Shown here: one piece after another, positions 3,609 through 39,300 of the stretch
Position numbering within the stretch: position 1 is the stretch's first letter
Layout: each line of letters begins with the position of its first letter
Assembly (NCBI GenBank): GCA_963281255.1
Contig: OY725500.1
Coordinates: 4,246,165-4,310,164, forward strand
Source: Aphrocallistes beatrix
Lineage: Eukaryota; Porifera; Hexactinellida; Sceptrulophora; Aphrocallistidae
Length of the DNA stretch: 64,000 nt
Reading direction: 5' to 3'
The notes under the pieces: model-generated
The model's database searches: none
What the model was told of the DNA's origin: nothing
Seen by the model: only the letters and a program-made list of their open reading frames with translations
Position numbers and translations under genes: made by a program

Positions 3609-4802
3609 TCAATTTACACTAATCAGTACAATTTCTCTCTTGAACAAATGTCTGAGAGGGATGTTAGAGTACATCGCTCCTACGCTGACAAACACGCGGC
3701 ACCCTGTGACGTCATCACAAGGGTACTCTCCTGCGAAATAAGGACTGGAGAGGTAGACCAGGAGGTTGAGAGGGAAGCTTTCCCCTCCATGTGTGTGTCC
3801 GCAGAGAATTAAATCCAAATTTCTGTGCTCACTGATAGCCAGCTTAGCTGATTCAGGTCGATGTGCTAATAATACTGTCTCGCGGTTTTTCTCTCGTCCT
3901 TCCAGTGTTCGTGCAAGATCTGTGTTTCTATCTTCGATCCCTGCTAAGTAGAACCATCCCTGTTCTTTCTCGTCGAAGATTCTCACATTCTCGTTCAGTA
4001 AACTCTCCACTCCCAATCTCTCCAGCTCTCCGATCAAACCACTGAGGCCGTGCTTGTAGTCGTGGTTTCCAGGTGCGAAATACACTCCTTTCTTAGGTGT
4101 CAGTTTTCGCAGGTGTGAGAGAGCTTTATTCCCCTTCTCAATAGGTAGGTCCAGCAGGTCTCCTCCTATCAACACGAGGCTAGGCTCTAAAGTGTTGATT
4201 TTCGCAACTAATGATGCCATGTCTCTTTCTCCAATTGCTGCCCCGATGTGAATGTCCGACACGAATACAATTTTGAAATTGTTATCTATGAAATTTCGCA
4301 CTTTCAAACTTAACTTAGTGACTTTCCATTCACTTGTGCAGTCATACAGTCCATATATGGTCAATAGAGTCCCAAGGACAAGTGCAGCTATGTCTGACTT
4401 AGGTGTTTGCATAAAAAATCCCGTTTTTGAGAGGAGATAGAATCCGGCAAACGACATACCAAGCATCTGTATGTGCCCTAGCAGGAGAAACCCTAATTTA
4501 GCGAGATCGTTGATTTCTGGGTTATTGCTAGTGATTAGGTGGCTAGCAGTATTTGTCACTAGGCCAGCGATGACAATTGCTCGTACCGCTAACAAGATAA
4601 TAGTTGAGATAAGCTTTGAGTATTTGTGTGTGAGTCGTGAAAAACCGCAATCCATAAAGAAAGCGTTGAGAGTGAAGCCTAGCAAAATCAACGCTCTCTT
4701 CCTGTGCCACCATTCCATCCTGTGGTCGGAGAGGTTTTTAACAAGAGTGTCCGCTGTAAGAAGCGCCAGCCAAGCAGCTAAAAGCGTAAGCGCAGTTCTC
4801 AT
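3609..4802 (-). CDS. TMPPE: Multipass transmembrane calcineurin-like metallophosphoesterase (TMPPE-like)
   Basis: The N-terminal half has about five hydrophobic segments. The C-terminal half is a metallophosphoesterase domain with all metal-binding blocks in order: SDIHIG (DxH), GGDLLD (GDxxD), GNHDYKHG (GNHD), LAHRPE and GHTHGG (GHxH). This order matches TMPPE, a poorly studied vertebrate membrane protein. The substrate is unknown. The ATG at 4802 gives 397 residues. The frame stays open upstream to 4952 but only a GTG lies there, so 4802 is preferred, or there is an unseen upstream exon. It is the only - strand gene in the block: convergent with CLPX (206 bp between stop codons) and divergent from SBF (140 bp between ATGs). 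No intron is evident. Confidence 0.88.
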   Translation of the reverse strand: MRTALTLLAAWLALLTADTLVKNLSDHRMEWWHRKRALILLGFTLNAFFMDCGFSRLTHKYSKLISTIILLAVRAIVIAGLVTNTASHLITSNNPEINDLAKLGFLLLGHIQMLGMSFAGFYLLSKTGFFMQTPKSDIAALVLGTLLTIYGLYDCTSEWKVTKLSLKVRNFIDNNFKIVFVSDIHIGAAIGERDMASLVAKINTLEPSLVLIGGDLLDLPIEKGNKALSHLRKLTPKKGVYFAPGNHDYKHGLSGLIGELERLGVESLLNENVRIFDEKEQGWFYLAGIEDRNTDLARTLEGREKNRETVLLAHRPESAKLAISEHRNLDLILCGHTHGGESFPLNLLVYLSSPYFAGEYPCDDVTGCRVFVSVGAMYSNIPLRHLFKREIVLISVN

Positions 4803-10449: not shown

Positions 10450-13400
10450 ATGGGGACAGAACTAGAAGACTACACCACATACATAAAGACACAGGACTCG
10501 ATATTCCTACAGTTTCACACCTCCAGTGATGTGCATAGCAACTACTCTATCGCGTCGGAAGGGTTCGGGACCGAAGCTTGCCACCTCGCCGCCACCAACT
10601 CGAGCGAGATGTTCAACCTGGCCTGGCAGGTGGAGTTCGTCGTGGACAATGTCTGCTCGGTGCACGCTCTTTCACAGAGCGAGGTAGGATGGCTGTGTTA
10701 CAAAGGTTCATGGTCTAGTTACTAGCTAGATTATAACGTGTGTCTATAGGGCAAGATTAAGACGAAGCGAGCAGTGCTGTATGGTAACGCGATCAAGCTG
10801 AAACACTCCCACTCCGACAAGTTCCTCTCTTGTCAAGGCAAACCCTGGAATAGAGACAAGCTCTCCTACAAAATCCATCTCCAGCAGGTACTCAAGATCT
10901 CATGCGTTTGTTTATTGTTTGTATTATTGTCCTGTTATTCTCAGGAAGACAACAAAGCCTGCTGGTTCGTGGTCGTGCCGGGGCAAGTGACTCGATCGGA
11001 AGGAGAGAAAGTTCGGTTCGGAGACGACGTACTCCTGCGGAGCATTTCCTTCGACAGGTATCTGTGCGCTGAGATGAACTCCTACGAAGACCCCAACTCC
11101 TCCCCCATGACCAGCCCCGGCGCTAACTTCTGGATGAACCTGGACGACATGGAGTCGCCCTCCTTCGTGATTGCCTCCTTCAAGAAGACACTCTGGTGCC
11201 TGCAGCTGTTCACGTCTAACGTGGCCAGAGAGCAAGACATCGGGTTCCTGTGCGGACAGGAGTCCGTGCAGTTCTTCTGCAGACACACCACCAGCTATCT
11301 GATGGCCTGCAGTGAAGAAGAGGACAAGGAGGGGGAAGGGCACGGCCAGCTCAAGTTTGAGCCTACGGATCACAAGAACGAAGTGAGTCAGCCATCCTAA
11401 TTTGCGGTTTGCTGCTTCTATTTATACTTCTTGCGTAGGTACTTTCCATCTGGCGGATAGAGCTGCTACAGCTGAAGTGGGGGGGTCTGCACCTGCAATG
11501 GGGACAGCCGTTCCGACTGAGACATATGGTGACAGGGAAATTCCTGGGGTCTAGACTGGAGGACAAGAACAGGTACAGCCTCGTGCTGCTGTCAGAGGAG
11601 GAGTCCAACTATGGGAACTCCGTGTTCAGTCTCCGCAGGAGTGTGGAGGACGTGTCTCACTGGGAGCAGAGAGAGGACCAATTCTTCAAACCGCAGATTA
11701 AGCTGGGAGACTCGATGGGTAAGCGGATCCTAGTTGGTTGGCTAACAACTCTTTAAACTAACTTAAATAGGTTTGCTTCAGCACTTTCCTGGAAAACCGG
11801 GAGCTCGTGGAGTGGACGCGCACCCCTTGTGGCTCGGATTCACGACGGGAGTGGTGGAGGAGTCCCGGTCCAGCAGACCGGCCATGTTCCTCTCTCAGGG
11901 GATCAACTACAAGTACGCACTCACCACAACCACCACCAGCACTGAGAAGTCGAAGGGAGCTGTCAACGTCTACATCACTGATAGGTCAGTGCTCTCACTG
12001 CCTTGTCCGTGTTGAGTGTAGGGATGCATGTAATCTGCGGTTTGTGTAGGATTATCAACACTTTTAAGAGAATCGTGTCTCAGAAACCTCTCCACGCCCA
12101 ATTCGTTCCCACCTGCAGGCGCCTCATCGAGATTCTGAAGGAGTTCTCGTCTCACTTCGACAAATTCACTACGCATGAGGGCCTCTTCAAGAGCTTCCTG
12201 TCTCTCGCCAGCGACGTGGAAACGATCTACAAGAACTCTTTCACAGCCGGACCGCCCAAACTATCCCACGCCCGTCTCTCCAGGGGGTCAGGGTCCCCCA
12301 GCACCAACATCAAGGACATCAAGTTCTCTCTCCTCAAGACGCTGGCTCAGTTCCTGAAGCACAACCCTGAGTGCAGCCGATACTTCTCACAGCCCGACAA
12401 CCTCAAACTCTTCTTGTCCATGGTGGAGGACCCCAAGTACAACAGAGAGGTGCTGACTGTGCTGCTGAACGCATTCCACGAGAATTCGGAGATCCTGAAC
12501 AGCTTCAAGGAGGCGTACATCGAACGCATCATCATGCTCTTCAGCTCCTTCGGCAGGAACGAGAAGATCTTGGAGCTGCTCACTTCTCTCTGTCTGTGCA
12601 ACGGCACCGCCATCCGCCGGAACCAGAACGTCATCTGCCACGAACTCCTCGGAAAGAGCTCCATTCATGATCTCCTGCTGCGCACCACCACCGTGAAAAA
12701 GATCCACGTGATGCGCACCAGCTTCTGCATCAGCCGACACTCCGACTCTGCCACTTACCCCAAGTGGTACTACGAGCTGGAGCTGGAGCACCCGGCTTCC
12801 GCTCTCTCTCGGGATTCCGCACACTTCCGAGTGGGGTGGATCGCCCTGGAGTACTTCTCTGATCTTCCTTTCTACGACTCCTCCCGCAGGGGGGAGGGAA
12901 CCCACTCAGAAGACGCCCTCTCCCTGTCTGAAGGGGGCGTAGGGGACGACCTGTACTCTTACGGGTTCGACGGTAGATACGTGTGGACTGGAGGGATTCC
13001 GTTCAGATCCTCTAGCTCCTCCGAGACTGCTGACTTCACTCTGACCAAGTCTGTGATTGGCTGTTACATCGATCTGAGTGAGAAGCACATGCGCTGCTGG
13101 TTCTCTCTGAACGGACAGATGCTGGAGCCGCGCCTGACCTGCCTTCCTTCCTCGCAGATGGTCTGTCCAGCTGTCAGCTTCTCCTCCGACCTCCGCTGCC
13201 ACTTCCGGTTAGGCGACGAGTTCGGCGGGTTCATTCACACCCCTGACTCTGAGTTCGTCGGGATCGCTAGCGCGCGCAGTCCTAACGAGGACGAGAGCCC
13301 TGGGACGGCTCACGCTGGAATGTTCTGCTCCGCCTCTGCCGTCAGCATCCCGCCGGGCGGTCAGACGGAGGGGGCGAACTCTTTCCGGATAGAGGGCCCC

Positions 13401-16400
13401 GCGGCTATTGACGACGACTGCTCCTTTGTTCCTACTCCGATCGACGTATCGGATATGCCGCCCAGCCCCGCTAGCCTGACGCAGCCCATCGCCGAGTACC
13501 TACACGACGTGTGGGCCGTGAACAAGATAGAGTCCGGCTGGGACTTCGCTGAGCAGAGAAACGACGGGAAGAAGCTGCACCCCCTCCTCATCCCCTTCTC
13601 CGAGATGTTCGAGGAGCAGAAGAAGTACGACCTGGATCTGGGGCAGGAGACCATCAAGACGCTGAAGGCACTCGGATACGACATGAAGGCGCCGAGCAAG
13701 GGGGGCTTCAGAGCTAAGAAGAAGCCGCTTGACCCGGAGACGTACCAGCTGAAGAACGGCTACCTCCCCTCCCTCTACAACCTGGACGCTCTCGAAGAGC
13801 TCCCAGCTCTGCACGACATGATAGAGCGCCTGGCGGAGAACGCACACAACCTGTGGGCGCGGAGCAAAGTGTCGAACGGATTCTGCTACGGGAGCAGCGC
13901 TAAGAACGCTTCTCTCAAGGTCTCCCCCTACCTCGTCCCGTACGAGAGACTGGGCAGCAGAGACAAGAAGTCGAATCGGGACTCAGTCAAGGGAGTGATT
14001 GAAGCGCTGATCGCCAGGGGCTACTCCATCCTCTCCATGCGCTCAGACCACGAGATCTTGGAGCTGGCGCGGAATGTGGACTTTTCCAGCATCAAGACGA
14101 TAACCTACCGCACTCAGAGCTCGTACGGCGTGTCAGAGGGCCTCTGGTACTATGACGTCACGCTAGAGACAGCGGGGTTCATACGCATAGGCTGGGCCGC
14201 CTCTGCTTTCAAAGCGGGGAGGCTGCTCGGCAGCGACGCAGACTCGTACGCGTACGACGGATACCTGGCCAGGAAGTGGAACAAGAACTCTGTCACATTC
14301 GGACAGCGATGGAAGAGCGGAGATAGGATCCGCTGCTTCCTTAACCTGAGGGAAGGAACCATCTGCTTCGCGTGCAATGACTCTCTCCTGCGCGGCACTG
14401 GCAACGACACGATCGCCTTCTCCGACCTCCCACGGGGGGACGGGTTCAAGTACTATCCGGCTGTGAGCCTAGGGAGGGGGCAGAGGGTGGAGATATCATT
14501 CATGGAAGGAAAAGAGATGAAGATCTACGAGCTGGTGGACGAGTACAGCCCCTTCTCTACAGGAGTCCACACTTCCATTCCTCTCTGGTACTCGCTAGAA
14601 GACTGCCACTACGAGCCCATCTCCTCTCCGCAGTCTGCGTTCTGCCTCTCCAAGGAAGTGGACCTGCTCGTCATTAATGAGATGAGTGTGCAGCTGAAGT
14701 CTCTCCCGCAAGACGTCCTGCCCGAGTGTCTGAGGCTGAATCTGGGCGTCCCACTGAAGACACGCTCCCCGGGCAGGAAGGACAACCTCATCTGCTTCGG
14801 AGTCCGCGTGCAGGTTTCTGACATCGGCAAGGCCTACCTCGGCTGGACCACTTCCTCTTTCAAGTTCTTCCCAGGCGAGAATAGCCACAGCTGGGGGCAG
14901 GAGTGCACCGTATCTGGGGACCCGCCCACTCTCGTGAAGACCGCCTACCTCATGCCACTCTCCAAGCTGACGGAGAAAATGCACCAGGAAGAACACCTGG
15001 AGGTGTACACAGTGCTGGACAGAGACCGCAGAGTCATCACGTACCATTTCTCCTATGACTCCGAGTGTAAGGGTGAGTCTTTCGAACTCTCTCCCACCGT
15101 CATCAAGCTCTTTCCTACATTCATCATCTCGCCTTCAAAGCAAAGAGTGTTCGACTTCCTGCTGGAGCCGCTTACTGACAGGTCCTCTCTCGCCTCTGCC
15201 ATCCTACCGCCGGGACGGACCGACAATTCGCGGAGTCACTACTTCGCTTGGATGGAGCTGCAGGCTGCCGTCGCCTACTCGTGGACCTACCGAGAGAACT
15301 ACAGCGTCAACTGCTGCCTGGAGCGAGCGGGAGACGGCGCCTGCACTCTCGTGCACGAGGATGTGCCCTCTTCTCCCACCGGCACGGGCGGCGGTTCCTT
15401 GGAGAGGCTGACTCCGTCCGTAGGCGCGCGTAAGCTGGTTAAGATGCACCGCGTCTACTCCAGCTTTGAGAGCACTGACGCCATCGGAGACAGGTGTCAC
15501 AGCCTGTACGTGCTGGTGCCCGAGGAAGAGACGCTGTTCAGATTCACAGACATTTCAGAGCGGCCGGTGCTGGCCAAATTCCTCACTCAATCCCTCCGAC
15601 TCTTCAACGCCATCTGCTACCACGTGTTCTCCTCGGCCGTCGACAGCGTGCAGGCCTACGTCACGAAGGAGACTCTCCTCGCCATGATGAGTCTGGCCCT
15701 CAAGTTCTACCTCCCCAACGACCTCAAGATCTCCATCTACGACCTCTACATCACTCTCAACTTCGAGAAGGAGTCCATGTGTGCGCTGTGGACGCGAGAC
15801 GACTTTGTCTTTGCAGCTGAGTTTCCAGACGACCCCTCCCCCTATCTCCCCACTCCTGGGAGGGGGCTATTCAGCGCGCAGGCCTCCTTCTACAGCGACT
15901 TCGGGGATGACTCAGTGATTGATACTCAGTACCACAAATTCAAGCGCTTCATCTTCTCCAAACTTAACGAAGTGCTCCTACACAAGGAGTACGCCTGTCG
16001 CAGCCTCACGCATCAAGATCACGTCGGACTGTTCGTGCCCATCCTCCGTATCATCAAGCACATGCTACTGACAGACCAGCTGGCAGATGAGGAGATGAAC
16101 AAGCTGATCTACCTTCTGGACCCGTCTCGTTCCTCCGTCAACATCGGAAGTCACCTGAAAACGGGCGGGGACGCAGATATCACAGGACTGCTGAATATAG
16201 AGAACTTGGAAGAGAGTGTGAAGTATGAGATCTGCATCATCCTGGACTACATGTGTGATCGGGAGCTGAAGGACAAGATCCGAGTGCTGGTAGAGTTCTC
16301 GGGAAGTATGGCTTACAAACTCAGGGCCGAGCAAGAGCAGAAGCACAAACAGCTGGAAGAACAGCTGAAGCAGTCTCCTTCCTTTGCGATGCAGAAAACG

Positions 16401-19400
16401 AAACAGTTCCGCCTTCGTCCCCTCGCCCAGGTGTGCGAGATGCTAGGCGTGAATGAGGAGGGAGGCATCGACGCTAAAGACACGAACGAACTGAGAGAGG
16501 AGGTTAAGCGGTTCCACAGGGACCTGTTGTTCAAGTTTGACGTGGAGCAGGGCAAGATGGAAGAAGGGGAGCTCCGCTCTTTCTTGGAGAGACACCCCTC
16601 CCAAGAAGATAAGCAGTCGCAGCTGCGCGCGCTCAACTCGATCATCAAGGACACGCTGCGGGGCTGGGTGGACAGCGAAGTGCAGGAACCGAAGCTGGTG
16701 TGCGCCATCTTCAACTTGCTGCACCGGCAGTTCCACGAGCAAGAGGAGTTCTCCTCCGCCCTCGAGAAGACCTACATCCTCCCCGCCTCCAAGCAGACGC
16801 ACAACCTCATCAGCCCCACCGACATCCTGTCCGCACTCGGACACCTGCGCTCTCTGATGGAGGTGCGGATCGACACGAGCGAGCAGAAGAGCCTGAAGCG
16901 ATACTTGAACATCCTCTCAGAGCCCAGGCTTGTGTTCCACCATCCAGAGCTGCTCTGCTCTCTGCAGATACACGAGACGGTGCTCAACGTGATGAAGCAC
17001 TTGCTGGACGATATCCAATCTAAAGAGCAGAATAAGACCAATCCCATCCACCAGCAGACCACCGACAACTTCAAGATATTCCAGGAGACCATCTCCGAGT
17101 GCTGCAAGTACCTCTGCAACCTAGCCAAGTTCTCGGGCGGCTCCAACTCCAAGTACGCCCCCACGAACTCCCAGTGCATGCTGTTTCCACATCTGGATTA
17201 CCTGCTTGAGCTCTCACGAGTGCACAACACCGTCGACTACCAGACTGACACCTCCCCCATGGAGGTGGCCAATGCCATCATCCGCAACAACGAGCGTCTC
17301 GCCCTCTGCTTGCAGGAGGAGCAGATTCGCAAGGTGATAGACCTGCTGGCGCACGCAGTTTCAGATCTGCACCTTCTCAACCGCACAGAGCAGTACCTGG
17401 AGTTCCTGAAACTGGCCGTCCGATCCAGCGATTGCTACATCGAAGAGAACGCAAAGATCATCGTCACTCATCTCATCTCCAACCGGATGTGCCTCGGCCC
17501 GGCGCTGGAATACAACCAGCCCAATGGGTTCGGCGGTTACTTCACCTCCCTCTCCTCTCCAACAGACGACTCGCTTTCGGCAGAAGTCACACTCCCCTAC
17601 TACATCTCCCTCCTCGACCTGCTGGCCAAATGCGCGCCTGACCACCCCTCCGAGGTCCTCCTCCTCTCCGAGACCCCGCCCATCTGCTCGGTCCTGCAGA
17701 AGATCATTGTCGAGGAGGACCTACGTCGGCTGTTGGAGTGCTCGCTGGAGCCGCCGGAGCGGTTCGAAGCGGGAGAGTTCGTCGAGCTGAAGAACAAGAA
17801 ATTCGCAGAGGAGTGGTCCAACTTCAAAGGCTCCATCCTTCTCTTCTACGAGCAAGTCCACTCCATCGACCCTGCCACCATCCTGGCGCTAATAGAAGCC
17901 TCCATCATCCCAGACATGCTGTACACGCTGTGTCTCTGCAGAGTGGACATCGACGAGGTGGCAGTCACCCTCCTCAAGTACATCACCCAGTCCGTGATCC
18001 CCTTCCTGCACCGCGCTATCGCCAGCATGCCGACTGACTCCATCTCAGATGCTCTGTCCTCGAAGTTGCTGCACGCCAACTACTGGCTGGCCTGTCTCCC
18101 TGTCGCCATGGTACAGAAGAATCAGGTCTCCGAGTTTGTCCGCCTCATCGCCAGTCGCCTGACCCCTGGGACCATGTACCCCCTCCTCTCCAAGCTCCTC
18201 CTGGACATGCACCACCTACCCCCACACAACCGTGGGATCGTCATTAACATGCTGCGCGTCCATTTCACCGCAAGGGGCGGCTACTATTCGGGCGCCAATA
18301 TAGACAGCACAAATGCCGCCACTCCACAGGAGCAGCACCAGTTGTTGGAACTGGCGCACTTTCTCCTGGAAGAGACCTACGCTTCTTCTCGCTCGCCCCC
18401 TTCTAAGATGGAGAGAAAATCCTCCTCGCTTGCTCAGAAAGAGAACAACTCGGCAAGACTGAGGGAGTGCCTACACGCGGTTATTCACGCCCTAGCTCCA
18501 GACATGCTGGTGCCAGAACACACACTCTCCGACACCTCTTTCCTCCTCCTCCCCAACCACCATCTCCACCTAGCTTCCTCCTCAGTGGGAACTTCACACC
18601 CTCAGATTCTGCCCTCATTCGACTTCCCTTCCCCTAGTGCCCTCTTGGGGCCTGACTCCAGACTCTCGCCCCCTTCTGACCTCATCCAGCGTCTGAAACG
18701 GCCGGCCACCGCTTGGCTGGACACGCTGCAGTACCGACTCTACTGCCAGGAGATCTCCGGCGTGATCGCGGATAAGGAGCGGATACAAGAGAGCGTGGAC
18801 TCCACCATCTCTCTCCTGCTCAACGCCATCATGAGCAAGGGCATCTACTTCGTGCACAATCCCCTGCACAACGGCCAGACGGACACCTACTCCTCCAAGG
18901 ACTTCCTATCCGTCATCAAGAACTCGTTCAACATCGGACTCACCAAGAAAGACTTACGTGACAAGACATGGAAACAACTGATGAGATCTGTCTCTCTCGC
19001 TGTGCTCGAGTTCTCCTCTCTCCTCAACAACCACCTCCACTTCCGGTCTAAGAGTGTGCGGGAGCAGCTGGTGCCCATTCCTTACTACCTCCTACAGACG
19101 CAGGAGCAGGAGATCATAGTGGAGGCGGTGTACGAGTTCTTTAACCTCATTTCTAACTCCGGCTACAAGCTACAGACCACCAAGCAGTCCTCCATGTCTG
19201 TGGATCAGACCGGAGAGAACTTCGGACGGCAGACCGTCACGCTGCTGGTCGTACACGAGCTGTACGAGAGCTTCCGAGGGAGGTGTGAGAAGATGCAAGG
19301 GTCCGGAGCGAAGGCTTACCTCCGCGACATCTTGCTGCCCGTCATCACCAACTACTTCTGGGAACACCGCAGCTACTTCGTGTCTGATGCTAACCAGCTC

Positions 19401-22400
19401 GTGTACATGAGCATGGCGTCTCAGTTCGAGCTGGTAGAAGTCGCGAAACTGTTCCACTTCATTATTCTGTACCTACACAAGAACCCCGACCTATTCGAGA
19501 AGAGTGCAGCCACGCAAAGGGAGATCAGAACCGCGTTAGAATGGCTGTGCAGGTGTATACACCCGTTCGCTAGCAACATTTCCGTCGGGAACATTGTGAG
19601 CGAAGATATGCCTGAGTTAACTGAGACAGACAGCTCGAACGCAGTGAATTATATCGAGGACGTGATCTCCATCCTGATCCACTCTCTCCAGGAGCAGCCC
19701 CCTTCCTCCCTCACCGCGGTCCTCCCTGTCATCTCTGTACTCGTCAAGCAGATCGGGAGCATTCGCGAGAATGCAGGAAAGCTGCATGGAAACCTGGCTC
19801 AGGTCGAGCTGGACAGACGTTTGACTGAGCTGTACCGTAGTCTCTCCGCCCGGGTGGACTCCACGCATCCCCGAGACCTCGCTGCGTATGGGGAGTGTCT
19901 GACTGCCATCTGCTGCACCCGAGTGTCCCCCCTGCTGGAGGAGAACTTCGGAGAGGCCGTCTCGCTCTATCAATCCATTCGCGCGCGAGTCCTGACAGCT
20001 TCCCTCCAGGACGAGGCGTACGTACACATATCCCTCCCCCTCATCACCAGGTACATCAAGCGCTGTAACGACCTGAAGACGGAGGATAGGCCGCGGCACA
20101 ACTCAGACATCCAACCGATCCTCTGCTCAGTGATCCGGTACCTCAGAGACAACATGCTGGCCGACATCCCCGAGGAGTACCATATCGTTCAGTGCCTGGA
20201 GCTGATCGCCCCCTACACGCCCCTCGAAGACCTGTGGAGTGTGTGGCGAGACTTGAAGTTGTACATCCACACCATCCGCACCGCTCTCATCTCGCTCTGG
20301 AAGTCAGAGCAGCGGCTGACAGCTGCCGAGGCAGGCAGTCAGTATAACGAGATGGAGCACAGCAACCTGGAGCCTCAGTTCAACACCCTCCTGCCGCACC
20401 TTCTCTCCGCGCTGATGCTGCTCGGCCGCTTCCTCTACTCGCGGGAGAAGGACCTGCTGGCCACGGCGCAGGAACACGCCCACGAGCACATCTCTCTCTT
20501 CTGGGACCTGGACTTCATCTTCAACTGCTGGCAGACCTCGCAATACGCGCGCCAAGGCTTGCAAGGGATCATTCATACAATCTGCAACAAGTTCGAGGGT
20601 ACGGAGACGCCCAATCTGCTCTCTGATAGAAACGAGCTCTCCATCCTCCTGCAGCTGGTGCTGCAGACGCAGAAGAAAGTGTACAACGAGCGCTGCCACA
20701 TCCTCGTCTACTGCGTGAAGACGCACCTCGACCTCATCCTCCACTTGAAGCACTTCTCCGCCTTGCATGAAGTCATCGAGAGCAGTGAGAACATGTTCCG
20801 TACGAACAACAACATCGAGTACATCTCTCAGAAGTTGGACCAAGAATACGCCGACAAGCACAAGTCCCTGTCTCTGTCCAACAGCCGCAGCTACGCCCTC
20901 CTCAACTGGTACCACCTGCCTCAGAGCGATTCTCAGAACGCACTTAAGATGGATCTGATGGAGATTGGGCGCGTTAAGGCGGCGATCTACAACCTCGAAC
21001 ATCCACGGGCGGGGCGGGATAGGTGGAGGAAGTTCCTGACGCAACACAAGAAGCGCGCCATCATGCGGAGCTTCCAGTCAGTGCCCATCTACAAGCTGCC
21101 TTGGTTCAAGATCAGCAACCACTTCCTGGAGACGTACCGCAGCAAGTGGCTGAGCAAGTCGCACAAGGAGGCCGACCTCATAACGCAGCTGGAGGCGACC
21201 ACACAGGAAGGTCCAGGAGCTGTGGAAGGCAGTAAGCCGCTCAAACTGCTAGTGGGTGTGTTCTGTCAGGGAGGCATCCAACAGACGGACCAACAGGTGC
21301 GTACGGACGACACGGTGCATGTAAACTATAGCTTCATTTCTAATTGTTTATTTTAGGAGTTATACCGGAAGTATGCCAAATCACTACAGGAGAGCTGTGA
21401 TTGCATCGACGACGATCCTGAGGGTCAGGAATGTGATGATATCTTCGCGCAGCAAGCTAAGAAGAAGGAACTGGAGAAGCAACAAGTGGAGCTGACCAAT
21501 CGGAACGTCGCCGAGATGGTTGTCGTGGTGCTAGCGGAGTCTGATGGATGCAGGGGAGACTTGATACAGGAGACCCTACAGCTCGGCATTTCCTTGCTCA
21601 AGGGCGGCAATCTAGAGGTGCAGGAGAACATTCTAGAATTCCTACAAACGTCTAAGGAAGGAGGAGACTTCTTCACGAGTATGTCCAGACTGATCTTTGA
21701 CTGTCCGGTGTTGGACCGGTCTACCTACGAGCGGCAGCGGAAGGTGTACGGCAACGCGGAGGACCTGCAGACCGCCATCAAGGACGACCAGTTCACGCAG
21801 GACCTGTTCCGCTTCCTACAGCTGCTGTGCGAGGGACACAACATGTCGATGCAGAACTATCTCCGCTCCCAGCAGGACAAGACCACCACTGTGAACCTGG
21901 TCGTGTCCACAGTGGACTACCTGCTCTCCCTGCAGGAGTCCATTCAGAACTTCTACGGGCAGTACGCAGGCCCGGGGGGCATAGACGTGCAGGGCCAGTC
22001 CAACTTCAAGAAGGTGTTCATGGTGGTGCAGCAGGTGAGTATGTGACGATTGCAATTCGCTAAACACCTGACACTGTAGCTAATGTTACTATGGACAGGT
22101 ATTCAACACGCTAACTGAGTACGTGCAAGGCCCCTGCAATGCTAACCAGCAGGCACTCAGCCAGTCGAGGCTGTGGGATGCCATCTCTGGATTCTTCTAC
22201 ATTTTCGCTAAACTCCAATCCAAGCTCTCCTCCGAGTACGAGTACTCGATGGAGCTGATGAAGGAGGTGTTGGATGTGCACGCAGACATGATAATTCTGC
22301 TGCTCAGCATGCTGGAAGGAAACGTGAACAACGAAGCTAACTCCATCTCTGGACAGATGAAAGATGCCCTGGTGGAGTCACGTCAGGTTGGTTCTTCATC

Positions 22401-25046
22401 TGTCTGGTATCAGTCCGCGTTCCTTAATTACAATGTACTCACTCCTCTGCACTTGGAACACAAAAAAAGCTCATGTAACCATCTAAGCAATTCAAGCTTC
22501 TGAGAACGAGTCTCATTGGCTTCTGCATTATCTATGGAGCTCATTGTGGCCGATTTCCAGTGATTCTCCGCTTATAAGAATTGCTGGTTATGATGCAGTA
22601 CAGGGTTCAGTGAGCTTGATTCTATTGGAATCTCTTCCATCCGAATGGGACCTTATGGCAAATCCATATGCGATATTTAACAGCTCCAATTCTCCATTGA
22701 TAGAATCTGAAGGAAATCGTGGAGTTCTGCTGCACATTCATCGATCTGAATGACGTCATCACCTCCAAAGGGTTCCAGAGCTACGACCAGAATAAAGACG
22801 GCGTGGTGAGCCGCATCGAGTTCGAGACAGCTCTCTCCTCTCAGAACTACAAACAGTCCGACATGGACTACCTGATGCGCTGCGCCGACACGAATCAGGA
22901 CGGCGTGATCGACTACATGGAGTTCATGGAGCGCTTCTACACGCCTTGCGATCGGATCGGCTTCAACCTCAGCGTCCTTTTTACCATCCTGTTCGATCAC
23001 CTGTTCGAAGGGGACACCAACCAGGAGCTAGGGCGCCTCAGGGATGACACTGAGAAACTGCGGAAGCACTTTAAGTCTTACACGGGTTGCATTGAGATCA
23101 TCGGTGAGTTGGTCTACATTCCTGTTATGACGTTTTGTTATTGTTTTCTACTTTGTTTATGCGCCTTGTTTACTTGGATGCAAAATCTAGTTTAGGAATT
23201 TTAATGTTGCTATGTAGGGAAGAGCAAGAAAGTGGAAAAGGTATTTTTCCAAATTGATAAGTCCAACTTCGAGCAATGGGAAAAACCTCAGATTCAAGAA
23301 TCCAAACGTAACTTTATTCAGAACTTAGACCACGAGATTTCCACTAAGGATAAAATGGAGAAGTTTATGGACTTCTGCGAAGACACGATATTTGAAATGA
23401 AGCACGCGGCAATGCTGAGTCAGTCCTTGGAGCGTGAGCGCGAAACCAGAGCCTGCGAGCACCACGAGAATGCTGCCGACTATTTCAAGATGGTACCCAC
23501 CGACCCAGTTGAGAAACTGGCGGTTAATTACAAAGTCCACGTAGATGAGGCTCGGAATAAGTGGGCGCGAGCGAAAATTGGGCTTTCCAGCTTCTACTCT
23601 AAGCTCGGTCTCCTCAAGTTTATTCTCGTCGTCCCTATCCTCGTGGAGTTCTGTATTAACATCGCCTCTTTTGTGAAGCAGAGATTCTACCCCACTCAGG
23701 GCAGCAAGCCCAACGCAGCAGTCACTGTAGACAGTTCGTATGTGCCCAGAATAATAGGCGCCACGCGTCGCTTCTCTTCCAATCTAGCGCAGATGGATTT
23801 CCTGCTGAGGAAGTCGAGCATGGTGATCGTGTTCGTGCTGAACCTGCTCCTGCTCTTCTGTAACTTTGATGCTCTCTCTGGCAGTTATGACGACAGCAGC
23901 AGCATCGTGTTCATGAACTTCACCGTCCCCGAAACCTTGGACAGAGTCAAGGTTTTCCTACTGCACTCTACCTCCTCTCTGCACTTGGTGTTCTCTGGGC
24001 TGCTAATCTGGACTTATTGGAAGTTAAAGTTCCCACTAATTGTCTTCCGCGAAGAGAAAAGTCTGTGTCACGCGATTGAAGGAAACAAAGAGAAATTGAA
24101 AAACGAATTTAATAAATGCATGTTTCTCATCAACAAACGCTGGTGGGATAAGCAAGTGTTATCTTCTGCAACATTCCCGCAGCATTATTGGAACAAACTT
24201 GTCCGTCAGGAGATGAAAGAAGAGTCTGATGACAAGGAAAGCAATGGAACATTTTATGGTTTTGACATCAATTACACTCTCTGGACCGTGGTGTGCGTTA
24301 TGTTGACGGACTACACGCTCCAGATTAAAGTGGTCTACTTCCTTTTCTCTCTCCTCGGCAAGTTGTACTCTCCAGCTTTCTTCTGTATCCACCTCCTACT
24401 GGACGTGTACACCAACTTCGAGACTCTTCGTACCATCTTCTACTCCATCTACCACAACAAAACGAGGCTGCTGATGAGTATCTTCATCCTGCTTGTGGTG
24501 CAGCTCATATTCAGCATAATCGGAATGTACCTGTTCGGCCCTGAAGATGAAGTGTCTCTCATCGATATTTTCTTGTATCTGGTCGGGCAAATTCCTGGCG
24601 GTAACCTCGATATTTCAGAGAAGTACCAACCTGATAACAACACCCTCGCACCTAAGGACACGACCGTCACGGTGTACAGTATCGCCTATTTCTTCGCCAT
24701 CCAGCTGGTACTGATCGCCCTGATTCAGGGTCTGATCATCGACGCGTTCGGAGAACTTCGGAAGAAGCAAGAGGATGCGAAGGTAGCAATGCACAATAAA
24801 TGTTTCATTTGCGGTCTGACCAAGGAGACATTCGACCAGAACACTCCCCGTGGTTTCGAGATGCATACCGAGAAAGAGCACTACTTTCCTAACTACCTCT
24901 TCTTCCTAATGCACCTGATCCACAAGGAGGAGACAGAGTACACAGGACAGGAGTCCTACGTCATGGACATGTACCGCAAGAGGGACTGGGAGTTTTTTCC
25001 TGTCGGTACTTGTTTCTCACAGCATAAGATTTCAGAAAACAAGTAA
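10450..25046 (+). CDS. RYR: Ryanodine receptor, intracellular Ca2+ release channel (10 exons, about 4578 aa)
   Basis: Exons: 10450-10683, 10750-10887, 10945-11382, 11439-11718, 11771-11984, 12050-21296, 21357-22034, 22099-22386, 22713-23103 and 23218-25046. Phases close exactly. Domains in order: N-terminal Ins145/MIR trefoils (SEGEKVRFGDD), RIH, SPRY1 (about 656), two RyR repeats (about 912 and 1021; LAENAHNLWA), SPRY2 (about 1121), SPRY3 (about 1347), RIH-associated (about 3662), two EF-hands (3864-3875 and 3898-3909), transmembrane helices (about 4100-4486) and the C-terminal zinc-binding tail (CFICG). SPRY and RyR repeats rule out an IP3 receptor. Human receptors are about 5000 aa; acidic linkers are shorter here. 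Both EF loops are canonical. The selectivity filter is not: GGGIGDE of the family is replaced by PGGNLDI (4429-4435). The inner helix QGLIIDAFGELR is conserved. The 9.2-kb middle exon has no intron. Confidence 0.95.
22387..22712 (+). other. Longest intron of the ryanodine receptor gene (326 nt)
   Basis: Between exons 8 and 9. The exon sequences join without missing conserved residues (VESRQ to EIVEFCC), so no exon is hidden here. I looked for an intronic snoRNA and saw no paired C/D boxes. Confidence 0.6.
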
Positions 25047-36367: not shown

Positions 36368-39300
36368 ATGTCTATCATTGCAAGCCTCACTCCGCACGCG
36401 ACAGCCAAAGAGGTGCTAGAGGAAAATCTGCTCACGGGCGAGGATTTCTTCCGTTGGAAGGAAGGTGAGACGACCTACGTCCCGGTGCACCTCTCTATCG
36501 ACCCTCAGGGCTACTACCTCCTCGAGGAGCCCAGGGGGCAGGTCATGCTGGGAGAGCAGAAGCGGAGAGCTCACGATCTCTTGCTCGTATCGGACCTGTC
36601 CTCAGGGCGAATGCGCAGGTGTAAGGCTATGCAGAATCTGCTGGAGCCGCAAGGCCTGGAGCTGCAGGGAGAGAAAGAGGACTGCTTTATGTGTCTCGTT
36701 GAGAGGATACAGGCGAGTTCTGATTAGCGTTACAACTTTATGGAATATCTCTGTTATATTATAGTCCCCTTTTTTAGAACCTGGACAACAACGTCCACTA
36801 CATCGTGAATCCGACCTACACCTACTACGCGCATCCTGATCCCGCCGTGATAGACCGCTGGAGCCAGTGCGTGAGCAAGCTCTGCTACAGCACCGCTCAG
36901 CTCAACATGGACCTGTTCCACCAGCTGAACAAGATTCTGACCTTACTCAAGTGGGAATGCGCGAGTGAGGATGGGACCGTGGAAGTGAAGAAATTCCTGA
37001 GACTATTCAACCTACATCGAGACAAGAAGCGAAATGTCAACTTAGTGCTGCAGCAGATGCAGCTCATACAGGACGAGAACTCTGCTCTAATACACGCTGA
37101 GTCCATCAGTCTGGATAGCCTCTGGGAGTTCTACGCGAGGTGAGCTATTCCCTAGCTGCCCCGTTACCTGAGTACGCTTTTACTAAGTGTGTAGGTTCGC
37201 GCAGAGACAAGACATAGAGACGATATTCTACACGAAGAGCTCCAACAGGCCGCTCCTAGAGCTGAAGAAGCTCGTCAAGTTCCTGAACGAGGAGCAGCGA
37301 GATCCGCGCAAGAACGTGCAGCTCTACCCCAAGATCACCCAGCGCCTGACGCTGCAGATGACGCGGCGGTACGAGGACGAGACCAAGCTAGGAGAGGGGG
37401 AGAAGAAGCTCACGTTTGACACATTCCACAAGTTTTTGTTGTCAGAGCAAAACTCCGTGATAGACAGGAACCACCTGGCACGCTGCGAAGACTTGGATCT
37501 ACCCCTCTCCTCTTACTTCATCAACTCCTCGCACAACAGCTACCTCACCGGGAACCAGCTCACCTCGCACTCCTCCGTGGAGATGTACATCCAGGCGCTG
37601 CTGCTGGGCTGCCGCTGTGTGGAGCTGGACTGCTGGGACGGGAATACGGAGCCGATAATAACGCACGGGAACACGCTCTGCTCCAAGATCTCCTTTGAAG
37701 ACGTGGTCAGAGCGATAGCTGACTTTGCCTTTGTGAAGTCAGACTTACCGGTTAGTCGACTCTCTCCTCAAGTTCTTCTCATTACTTACTCGGTCTGATT
37801 TGGTTGTGTTCTTAGGTGATACTCTCCTTCGAGAACCACTGTTCTCCCCCGCAGCAGCAGCTAATGGCCAGGTACTGCATCAAGTACTTCGGAGAGAAAC
37901 TGCTCGATCATCCCCTCTCCGAGTACCCGCTGGACCCCGGGGCGCCCCTCCCTCCCCCCAGCGCTCTCAGACACAAGATCCTGATCAAGAACAAGAAGGC
38001 CACCTCTCACGCGGCAGAGCCCTCGGAGGCGGAGACCGTTCATTCTCTGGAGGAGAAGGCTGAGAAGGACGATGAGGAGCACGAGACGGAGCACATAGAC
38101 CAGCACCTGGGTAGGCCATTATACCTCCCGCGATGTTATTGCGAAATCGCGATTTATTTTAATACTTTACAGGGGACCTTGTCAATTATGTGGAGCCAGT
38201 CAAGTTCAAATCTTTCGCCCTCTCCGACAAGCTAGCTCTCAACTATCAAATGAGCTCCTTCTCCGAAGTGAAAGGTCTGGAGTTCATGCAGGAAACAGGG
38301 GACGGTTTCCGCAGGTATAACATCACACACACCAGCCGCGTGTATCCGGCGGGCGGGCGCATCAACTCCTCCAACTACATGCCTCAGGTGTACTGGAACG
38401 TGGGGTGTCACATGGTGGCACTCAACTACCAGACAGCAGACCTTAGTATGCAGCTGAACCAGGCCAAGTACGAGTACAACGGAAACTGCGGCTATCTGTG
38501 TAAGCCCGATATTCTGCGTAACCAAGACCTCGTATTCGATCCCTTCTCCCTGAAGGAGCTCGGGAACAAGATCCCCACCGACCTCTCTCTCAAGATAATC
38601 TCCGCTCAGTTCCTCGGCCCAAGCACTCGCGACGTGCAAGTGCAATGTGAGCTGTTTGGACTTCCTGCGGACACATTTCGTGGTCAGAAACACAAGAACA
38701 AGTGGACCAGGTTCGTCTCTTACAACGGAGTGATGGCTTATTTCGATATCGAAAAGGACAAAATGATATCGTTCCCTCCCATCCTATGCGAGGAGCTGGC
38801 TCTGCTGAGATTCACGGTAGTGGACGACTCAGGCAATTTCATTGCGCAGCGAACTGTGCCCTTAAAGTCGCTCCAGACCGGATACCGCCATATCTTCCTT
38901 CGAGACCGCTGCAACCACCTCATCCCGCTCGCCTCTCTCTTCCTGCACATCCAGCTGGACGACTACGTGGCCCCCCATTTGGAGGGCTTCGTCAAGATGC
39001 TGGCCAATCCCGAGAATATGAAGCCGCAGGCCAGCGCCATTGAGCGTCCGGATGAAGCGGAGTTTAGGAAGGAGGCGCTGCACGCGCTGTTGCTGGGAAC
39101 AGAGCTGGAAGGGGAGGAGGAACTCCCCAGTGTCAGAGAAAGTGACGAGGGCGCCTTCATTCCTCTTGCTGCTGGCTTCACGGTGAGAGCAGTGATCTCA
39201 TTAATTCATGCAAGAGCTTGCTGTTAGATTAATTAATGTGTGTGTAGGAGCAAACAAGGAGTTTTAGCTCCAATGCTATCTCCTCGATACCGAAGCAAGA

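Follow-up and report, generated by a model that had tools for sequence, protein, structure and literature searches.

The ryanodine receptor (RyR) gene recognised, on the strength of its sequence, in the 64-kb window (the whole stretch of DNA that was analysed) carries the selectivity filter PGGNLDI at 24594-24614 of the + strand, in frame in the last exon, where the RyR references present GGGIGDE and those of the IP3 receptor (IP3R) present GGGVGDV. Given that the luminal half of the pore contrasts significantly with the cytosolic half, and that the filter alone is no outlier, a rebuilt luminal entrance describes the finding better than one odd filter would. By analogy with known channels, this gene would encode a working Ca2+-gated cation channel with a lower conductance and/or a weaker Ca2+ preference, a reading to which a probability of about 0.55 may be given.

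A GT-AG splice search, combined with translation, produced a model of 10 exons for the RyR gene (10450-25046, + strand), which encodes 4,577 amino acids in a reading frame that is open throughout. Exons 1-5 of the model, all on the + strand, are located at 10450-10683, 10750-10887, 10945-11382, 11439-11718, and 11771-11912, and exons 6-10 at 11990-21296, 21357-22034, 22099-22386, 22704-23103, and 23218-25046, separated by nine introns of 52-317 nt, all of them GT-AG, which keep the reading frame across the splice sites. The start codon was chosen by eye; at 11912/11990, a lower-ranked splice candidate was taken, which leaves that junction uncertain. The exon layout is unusual, with one exon of ~9.3 kb (11990-21296) and gene ends that are rich in short introns.

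The contig window is eukaryotic and gene-dense, and the neighbours of the RyR within it are a myotubularin-related gene, a syntaxin-5-like gene, folliculin, reticulon, Sec5, phospholipase C, a BRF1-like gene, and a TMEM131-like gene. The phospholipase C is PI-specific, with X and Y domains, and is found ~12 kb downstream of the RyR (37187-39224), a linkage that is probably due to chance. A tandem satellite array with a 43-bp unit extends from 56616 to ~64000 (~165 register positions), and 27 of the 30 copies listed are equal to the reference copy. Scans of the 64-kb window for tRNAs and Rfam families returned no matches.

The domains found in the RyR gene using Pfam were Ins145_P3_rec, RIH, SPRY, RyR, the junctional solenoid, RIH_assoc, EF-hand, and Ion_trans. 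The RyR repeats and the SPRY domains above the Pfam cutoff number two each, and a third SPRY domain is under it (21.9 bits vs 26.3). Mammalian RyRs carry four RyR repeats (PMC3194816), and the stretch in which the second pair is expected, at 17103-21290, gave no Pfam match in five overlapping pieces, at E values of up to 10, and, with phmmer, a collinear stretch that is not significant (6.8 bits, i-Evalue 14), so that this second pair may be degenerate or lost. The channel exon is closer to the RyRs than to the IP3Rs (E 2e-77 vs 2.5e-25), and the identity to the RyR references over the pore and C-terminal domain is 46-47%. The core solenoid is also well conserved (E 6e-54 to RyR2), including the LLCEGHN stretch, which presumably holds one of the acids of the Ca2+ site. 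The EF-hand pair (22704-23103) presents canonical-looking Ca2+ loops (DQNKDG..., DTNQDG...); the EF-hands of vertebrate RyRs are more degenerate.

The traits that would mark an IP3 receptor, i.e., a GGGVGD filter and the absence of RyR and SPRY domains, were not found in this gene, which also lacks the GGGIGDE of the known RyR members and has PGGNLDI instead. Since the family is defined by architecture and homology, its filter being a trait conserved among the known members, the gene was filed as an RyR despite its filter and is, judging by these features, a genuine ryanodine receptor gene. The original prediction, made from the letters of the DNA, of an RyR whose reading frame is open and whose filter is non-canonical is thus borne out by the domains, the similarity of the channel exon, and the open 10-exon model.

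The substitution of the filter was also confirmed in frame, at residue 4428 of the present model rather than at 4429, as given previously. The whole of PGGNLDI lies within a single uninterrupted exon of the model (23218-25046), both flanks match the RyR in frame, and, of the alternative frames across the pore region, one has stops and the other is open and has no filter-like motif. The codon statistics of 24540-24660 are far below those of the flanks, yet the coding frame is still the best one. The possibility, raised by eye, that an 18-nt GT...AG string within the filter codons is an intron was rejected, as this string is shorter than all the introns of the model. When the 64 kb were scanned in six frames for a contiguous GGG[IV]G, a search from which a motif split by an exon junction would escape, none was found on the coding strand, and the sole match was on the reverse strand, at 11106, in an unrelated frame. 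That GGGIGDE was lost through an error of assembly or sequencing, or is restored in a hidden form by splicing or editing, is consequently very improbable, even though a single sequence was analysed and a split motif would escape the scan, given that no frame contains the contiguous canonical motif, both flanks stay in frame, and the changed stretch is long, unlike a short frame-shifted one. The resolution of the 43-bp satellite array on the same contig also hints at long reads, and a sequence error behind PGGNLDI appears unlikely, as had been anticipated. The claim that the Gly-Asp-Glu cluster is gone stands for the contiguous motif and not for its acids, as an Asp (24609) and a Glu (24618) persist at the mouth of the filter in the form D-I-S-E (PGGNLDISE).

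The register of the filter is ambiguous by one residue. Using phmmer and the first MAFFT alignment, GG corresponds to G4894-G4895, with the Pro at the variable A4893, the Asp at G4898, and the Glu at E4900; in the L-INS-i and G-INS-i runs, the Pro falls at G4894 and the Asp at D4899, and, in a third alignment run, G4898 is deleted and the Asp is still at D4899. The ungapped scores for the Pro at A4893 vs G4894 are nearly tied for the RyRs (12 vs 13 for RyR2, 14 vs 12 for the 6x32 RyR), and favour A4893 over G4894 for the IP3Rs (1 vs -6 for IP3R1, and 0 vs -6 for IP3R2, tied with a third shift). The Pro at A4893 is slightly favoured, since the references vary at this position, and the filter is narrowest at G4894 (PMC5932038). 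Whichever register applies, GGNLDISE contributes an Asp and a Glu. A profile built from the four RyR/IP3R pore references left the P-loop without alignment, as its match begins only at S6. The AlphaFold model of 24228-25043, which was run with no alignment (pLDDT 44, pTM 0.24), was used solely as a weak hint of the pore-helix end, given its low-confidence helix at 24558-24587.

When the pore and C-terminal domain are considered together, 60 columns are invariant, in the restricted sense of being identical in four references only (two RyRs and two IP3Rs). From the C-x5-C pair to the early S6, i.e., the luminal half, 5-6 of 20 invariants are kept, depending on the register, in comparison with 34 of 40 in the cytosolic half, a contrast that is significant (Fisher p 8e-6 to 7e-5) for a split that was picked after the alignment had been seen. 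The filter alone, on the other hand, keeps 3-4 of its 7 invariants vs 36 of 53 in the rest of the pore and C-terminal domain, which is not significant (Fisher p 0.23-0.68). The loop, the pore-helix end, the filter, and the luminal start of S6 have diverged together, and the cytosolic gate helix and C-terminal domain are conserved. The filter thus belongs to a broader divergence on the luminal side, which the original prediction did not list.

The luminal loop (PEDEVS, 24540-24557, + strand) lacks the C-x5-C pair of the RyR and IP3R references, and its shortening, which had been noted previously, amounts to 14 gap columns relative to RyR2 in one alignment and 14-15 residues in three later alignment runs. 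The pore helix and its end, LIDIFLYLVGQIP (24558-24596, + strand), have Ile or Gln, according to the register, where the references have Arg (RyR1 R4892, IP3R1 R2544), and Ser (24678-24680, + strand) replaces the reference Asp that is its partner (RyR1 D4917 by count, IP3R1 D2570), R2544 and D2570 forming a salt bridge in IP3R1 (PMC8149723). The paired loss of the Arg and of its salt-bridge partner, together with the shorter loop, suggests that these changes were coordinated. The pore-lining helix QGLIIDAFGELR (24726-24761, + strand) is conserved in the alignments, including the equivalents of Q4933, D4938, and E4942, and is followed by Lys-Lys (24762-24767, + strand) in place of the RyR D4945 and a Gln, which reverses the acidic ring of the cytosolic vestibule. 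The conserved C-terminal domain (24801-25022, + strand) includes CFICG...H...H, which we take to be a zinc-finger motif, and EYTGQESYV.

The net charge behind the filter is -2 in this gene, compared with -6 in RyR2 and +1 in IP3R1, and that of the cytosolic segment is +1, compared with -4 and 0, respectively. In the luminal segment as a whole, the net charge of -6 is close to the -7 of RyR2, despite the presence of 8 acids rather than 13, because the gene has fewer basic residues there. With the Asp and the Glu that persist at the filter mouth, the acidic selectivity would be rearranged and not erased. Four subunits would still be expected to form a Ca2+-gated cation pore, with an Asp ring and a nearby Glu ring at its mouth, fewer acids behind the filter, and a cytosolic vestibule without the D4945 ring, and, given these features, the conductance and/or the preference for Ca2+ over K+ would be lower than in the mammalian RyRs. 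The receptor would be electrostatically intermediate between the RyR and IP3R, and its sensitivity to ryanodine may also differ, since residues of the pore-helix end have changed.

The prediction that selectivity or conductance should differ finds a parallel in nearby mammalian mutants, which alter both (PMC2668181, PMC5932038, PMC8149723). In its original wording it is not supported, as the acids have been moved around and are still present. IP3 receptors, which have GGGVGDV and no Glu, also release Ca2+. In mammals, D4899Q in RyR1 reduces the K+ conductance from 801 to 164 pS and PCa/PK from 7 to 1, and G4898R abolishes the Ca2+ current (PMC2668181), while D4938N and D4945N result in less current and selectivity, and G4894A in strongly reduced currents (PMC5932038), a role in the cytosolic vestibule being assigned to D4945 (PMC5932038, PMC2668181). 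Given this, the register with the Pro at G4894 would predict a badly impaired pore, by mammalian analogy. The reading of reduced conductance also has to contend with the luminal charge that is close to that of RyR2, the non-significant divergence of the filter when taken alone, and the poor AlphaFold model.

A more radical outcome, in which the pore conducts little or nothing and the protein acts as a Ca2+-sensing scaffold or as a dominant modulator in mixed tetramers, is improbable. It would be in line with the strong reduction of currents in the mammalian G4894A (PMC5932038), with the elimination of flux by G2546A and the pore-dead D2551A in IP3R1 (PMC8149723), and with the lack of a profile match to the P-loop, but it is difficult to reconcile with the strong conservation of S6, with its D4938 equivalent, of the gate residues, and of the C-terminal domain, or with a filter mouth that still has two Gly, one Asp, and one Glu. 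It is similarly doubtful that Ca2+-sensing and gating were kept while the pore, with its unusual D-x-x-E mouth, was re-tuned for mainly monovalent cations, which would convert a Ca2+-release channel into a Ca2+-gated counter-ion or K+ channel of the ER. A rather less remote, although still unlikely, explanation is that the gene is a divergent paralogue, and that a canonical RyR elsewhere in the genome performs the ordinary Ca2+ release; the changed luminal mouth, combined with the conserved core solenoid and gate, is what a specialised copy would show, although a single RyR gene is seen within the 64-kb window.

The chances are about even that PGGNLDI is the normal RyR filter of the clade of this organism, e.g., sponges or some other early lineage of holozoans, and thus an old lineage trait, which would be compatible with the explanation of reduced conductance. 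The introns, the set of genes, and the degree of pore identity would tentatively fit a holozoan that branched early, perhaps a sponge. The high overall divergence from the RyR references, with the 46-47% identity given above, points in this direction, as do the RyRs reported in Capsaspora, choanoflagellates, and sponges (PMC7582152, PMC10280926) and the variation of the filters in ciliates (PMC3213138) and oomycetes (PMC7399828). Many Paramecium channels have only the core filter motif, or none (PMC3213138), and GGGLG(G/S) is found in some IP3R homologues of oomycetes (PMC7399828), so filter drift is already known in the superfamily. Indirectly against a clade trait, the filters of animal RyRs and IP3Rs are described as a conserved GGG[VI]GD, in passages that name few taxa (PMC3213138, PMC7399828). 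In two scans each of collections of viral and prokaryote contigs, which hardly cover animals, the pattern matches included no relatives confirmed by tblastn.

In comparison with the structures of RyR1/2/3 (PDB 5gky, 5go9, 9c1e, and others), the domain order, core solenoid, EF-hands, QGLIIDAFGELR helix, and C-terminal domain are alike; the gene differs in having PGGNLDI for GGGIGDE, 14-15 fewer residues in the loop, and no C-x5-C, R4892, D4917, or D4945, and may differ in its second RyR-repeat pair, which was not detected above noise. The IP3 receptors (PDB 7lhe, 12ad, and others) have the pore and C-terminal domain of the superfamily in common with the gene, and likewise lack E4900 (Val) and D4945 (Ser), but they are much less similar to it, keep GGGVGD, and differ from it in its RyR and SPRY domains. 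The Ca2+-release channels (CRC) of Paramecium and the oomycete IP3R homologues also depart from GGG[VI]GD, with filter sequences that differ from this one, going by their published descriptions (PMC3213138, PMC7399828).

A text search of a collection of papers found neither PGGNLD nor GGNLDI, which does not imply their absence from print, and an animal-type RyR with a PGGNLDI filter is, as far as the literature was searched, a new variant. To our knowledge, the filter of the RyRs is regarded as almost invariable across animals, and mutations at this filter in humans cause muscle disease. A natural RyR that keeps its giant regulatory machine with a rebuilt mouth would represent a ready-made test of the residues that set conductance and Ca2+ preference, and this luminal mouth would also inform the evolution of the filter since the split of the RyRs and IP3Rs.
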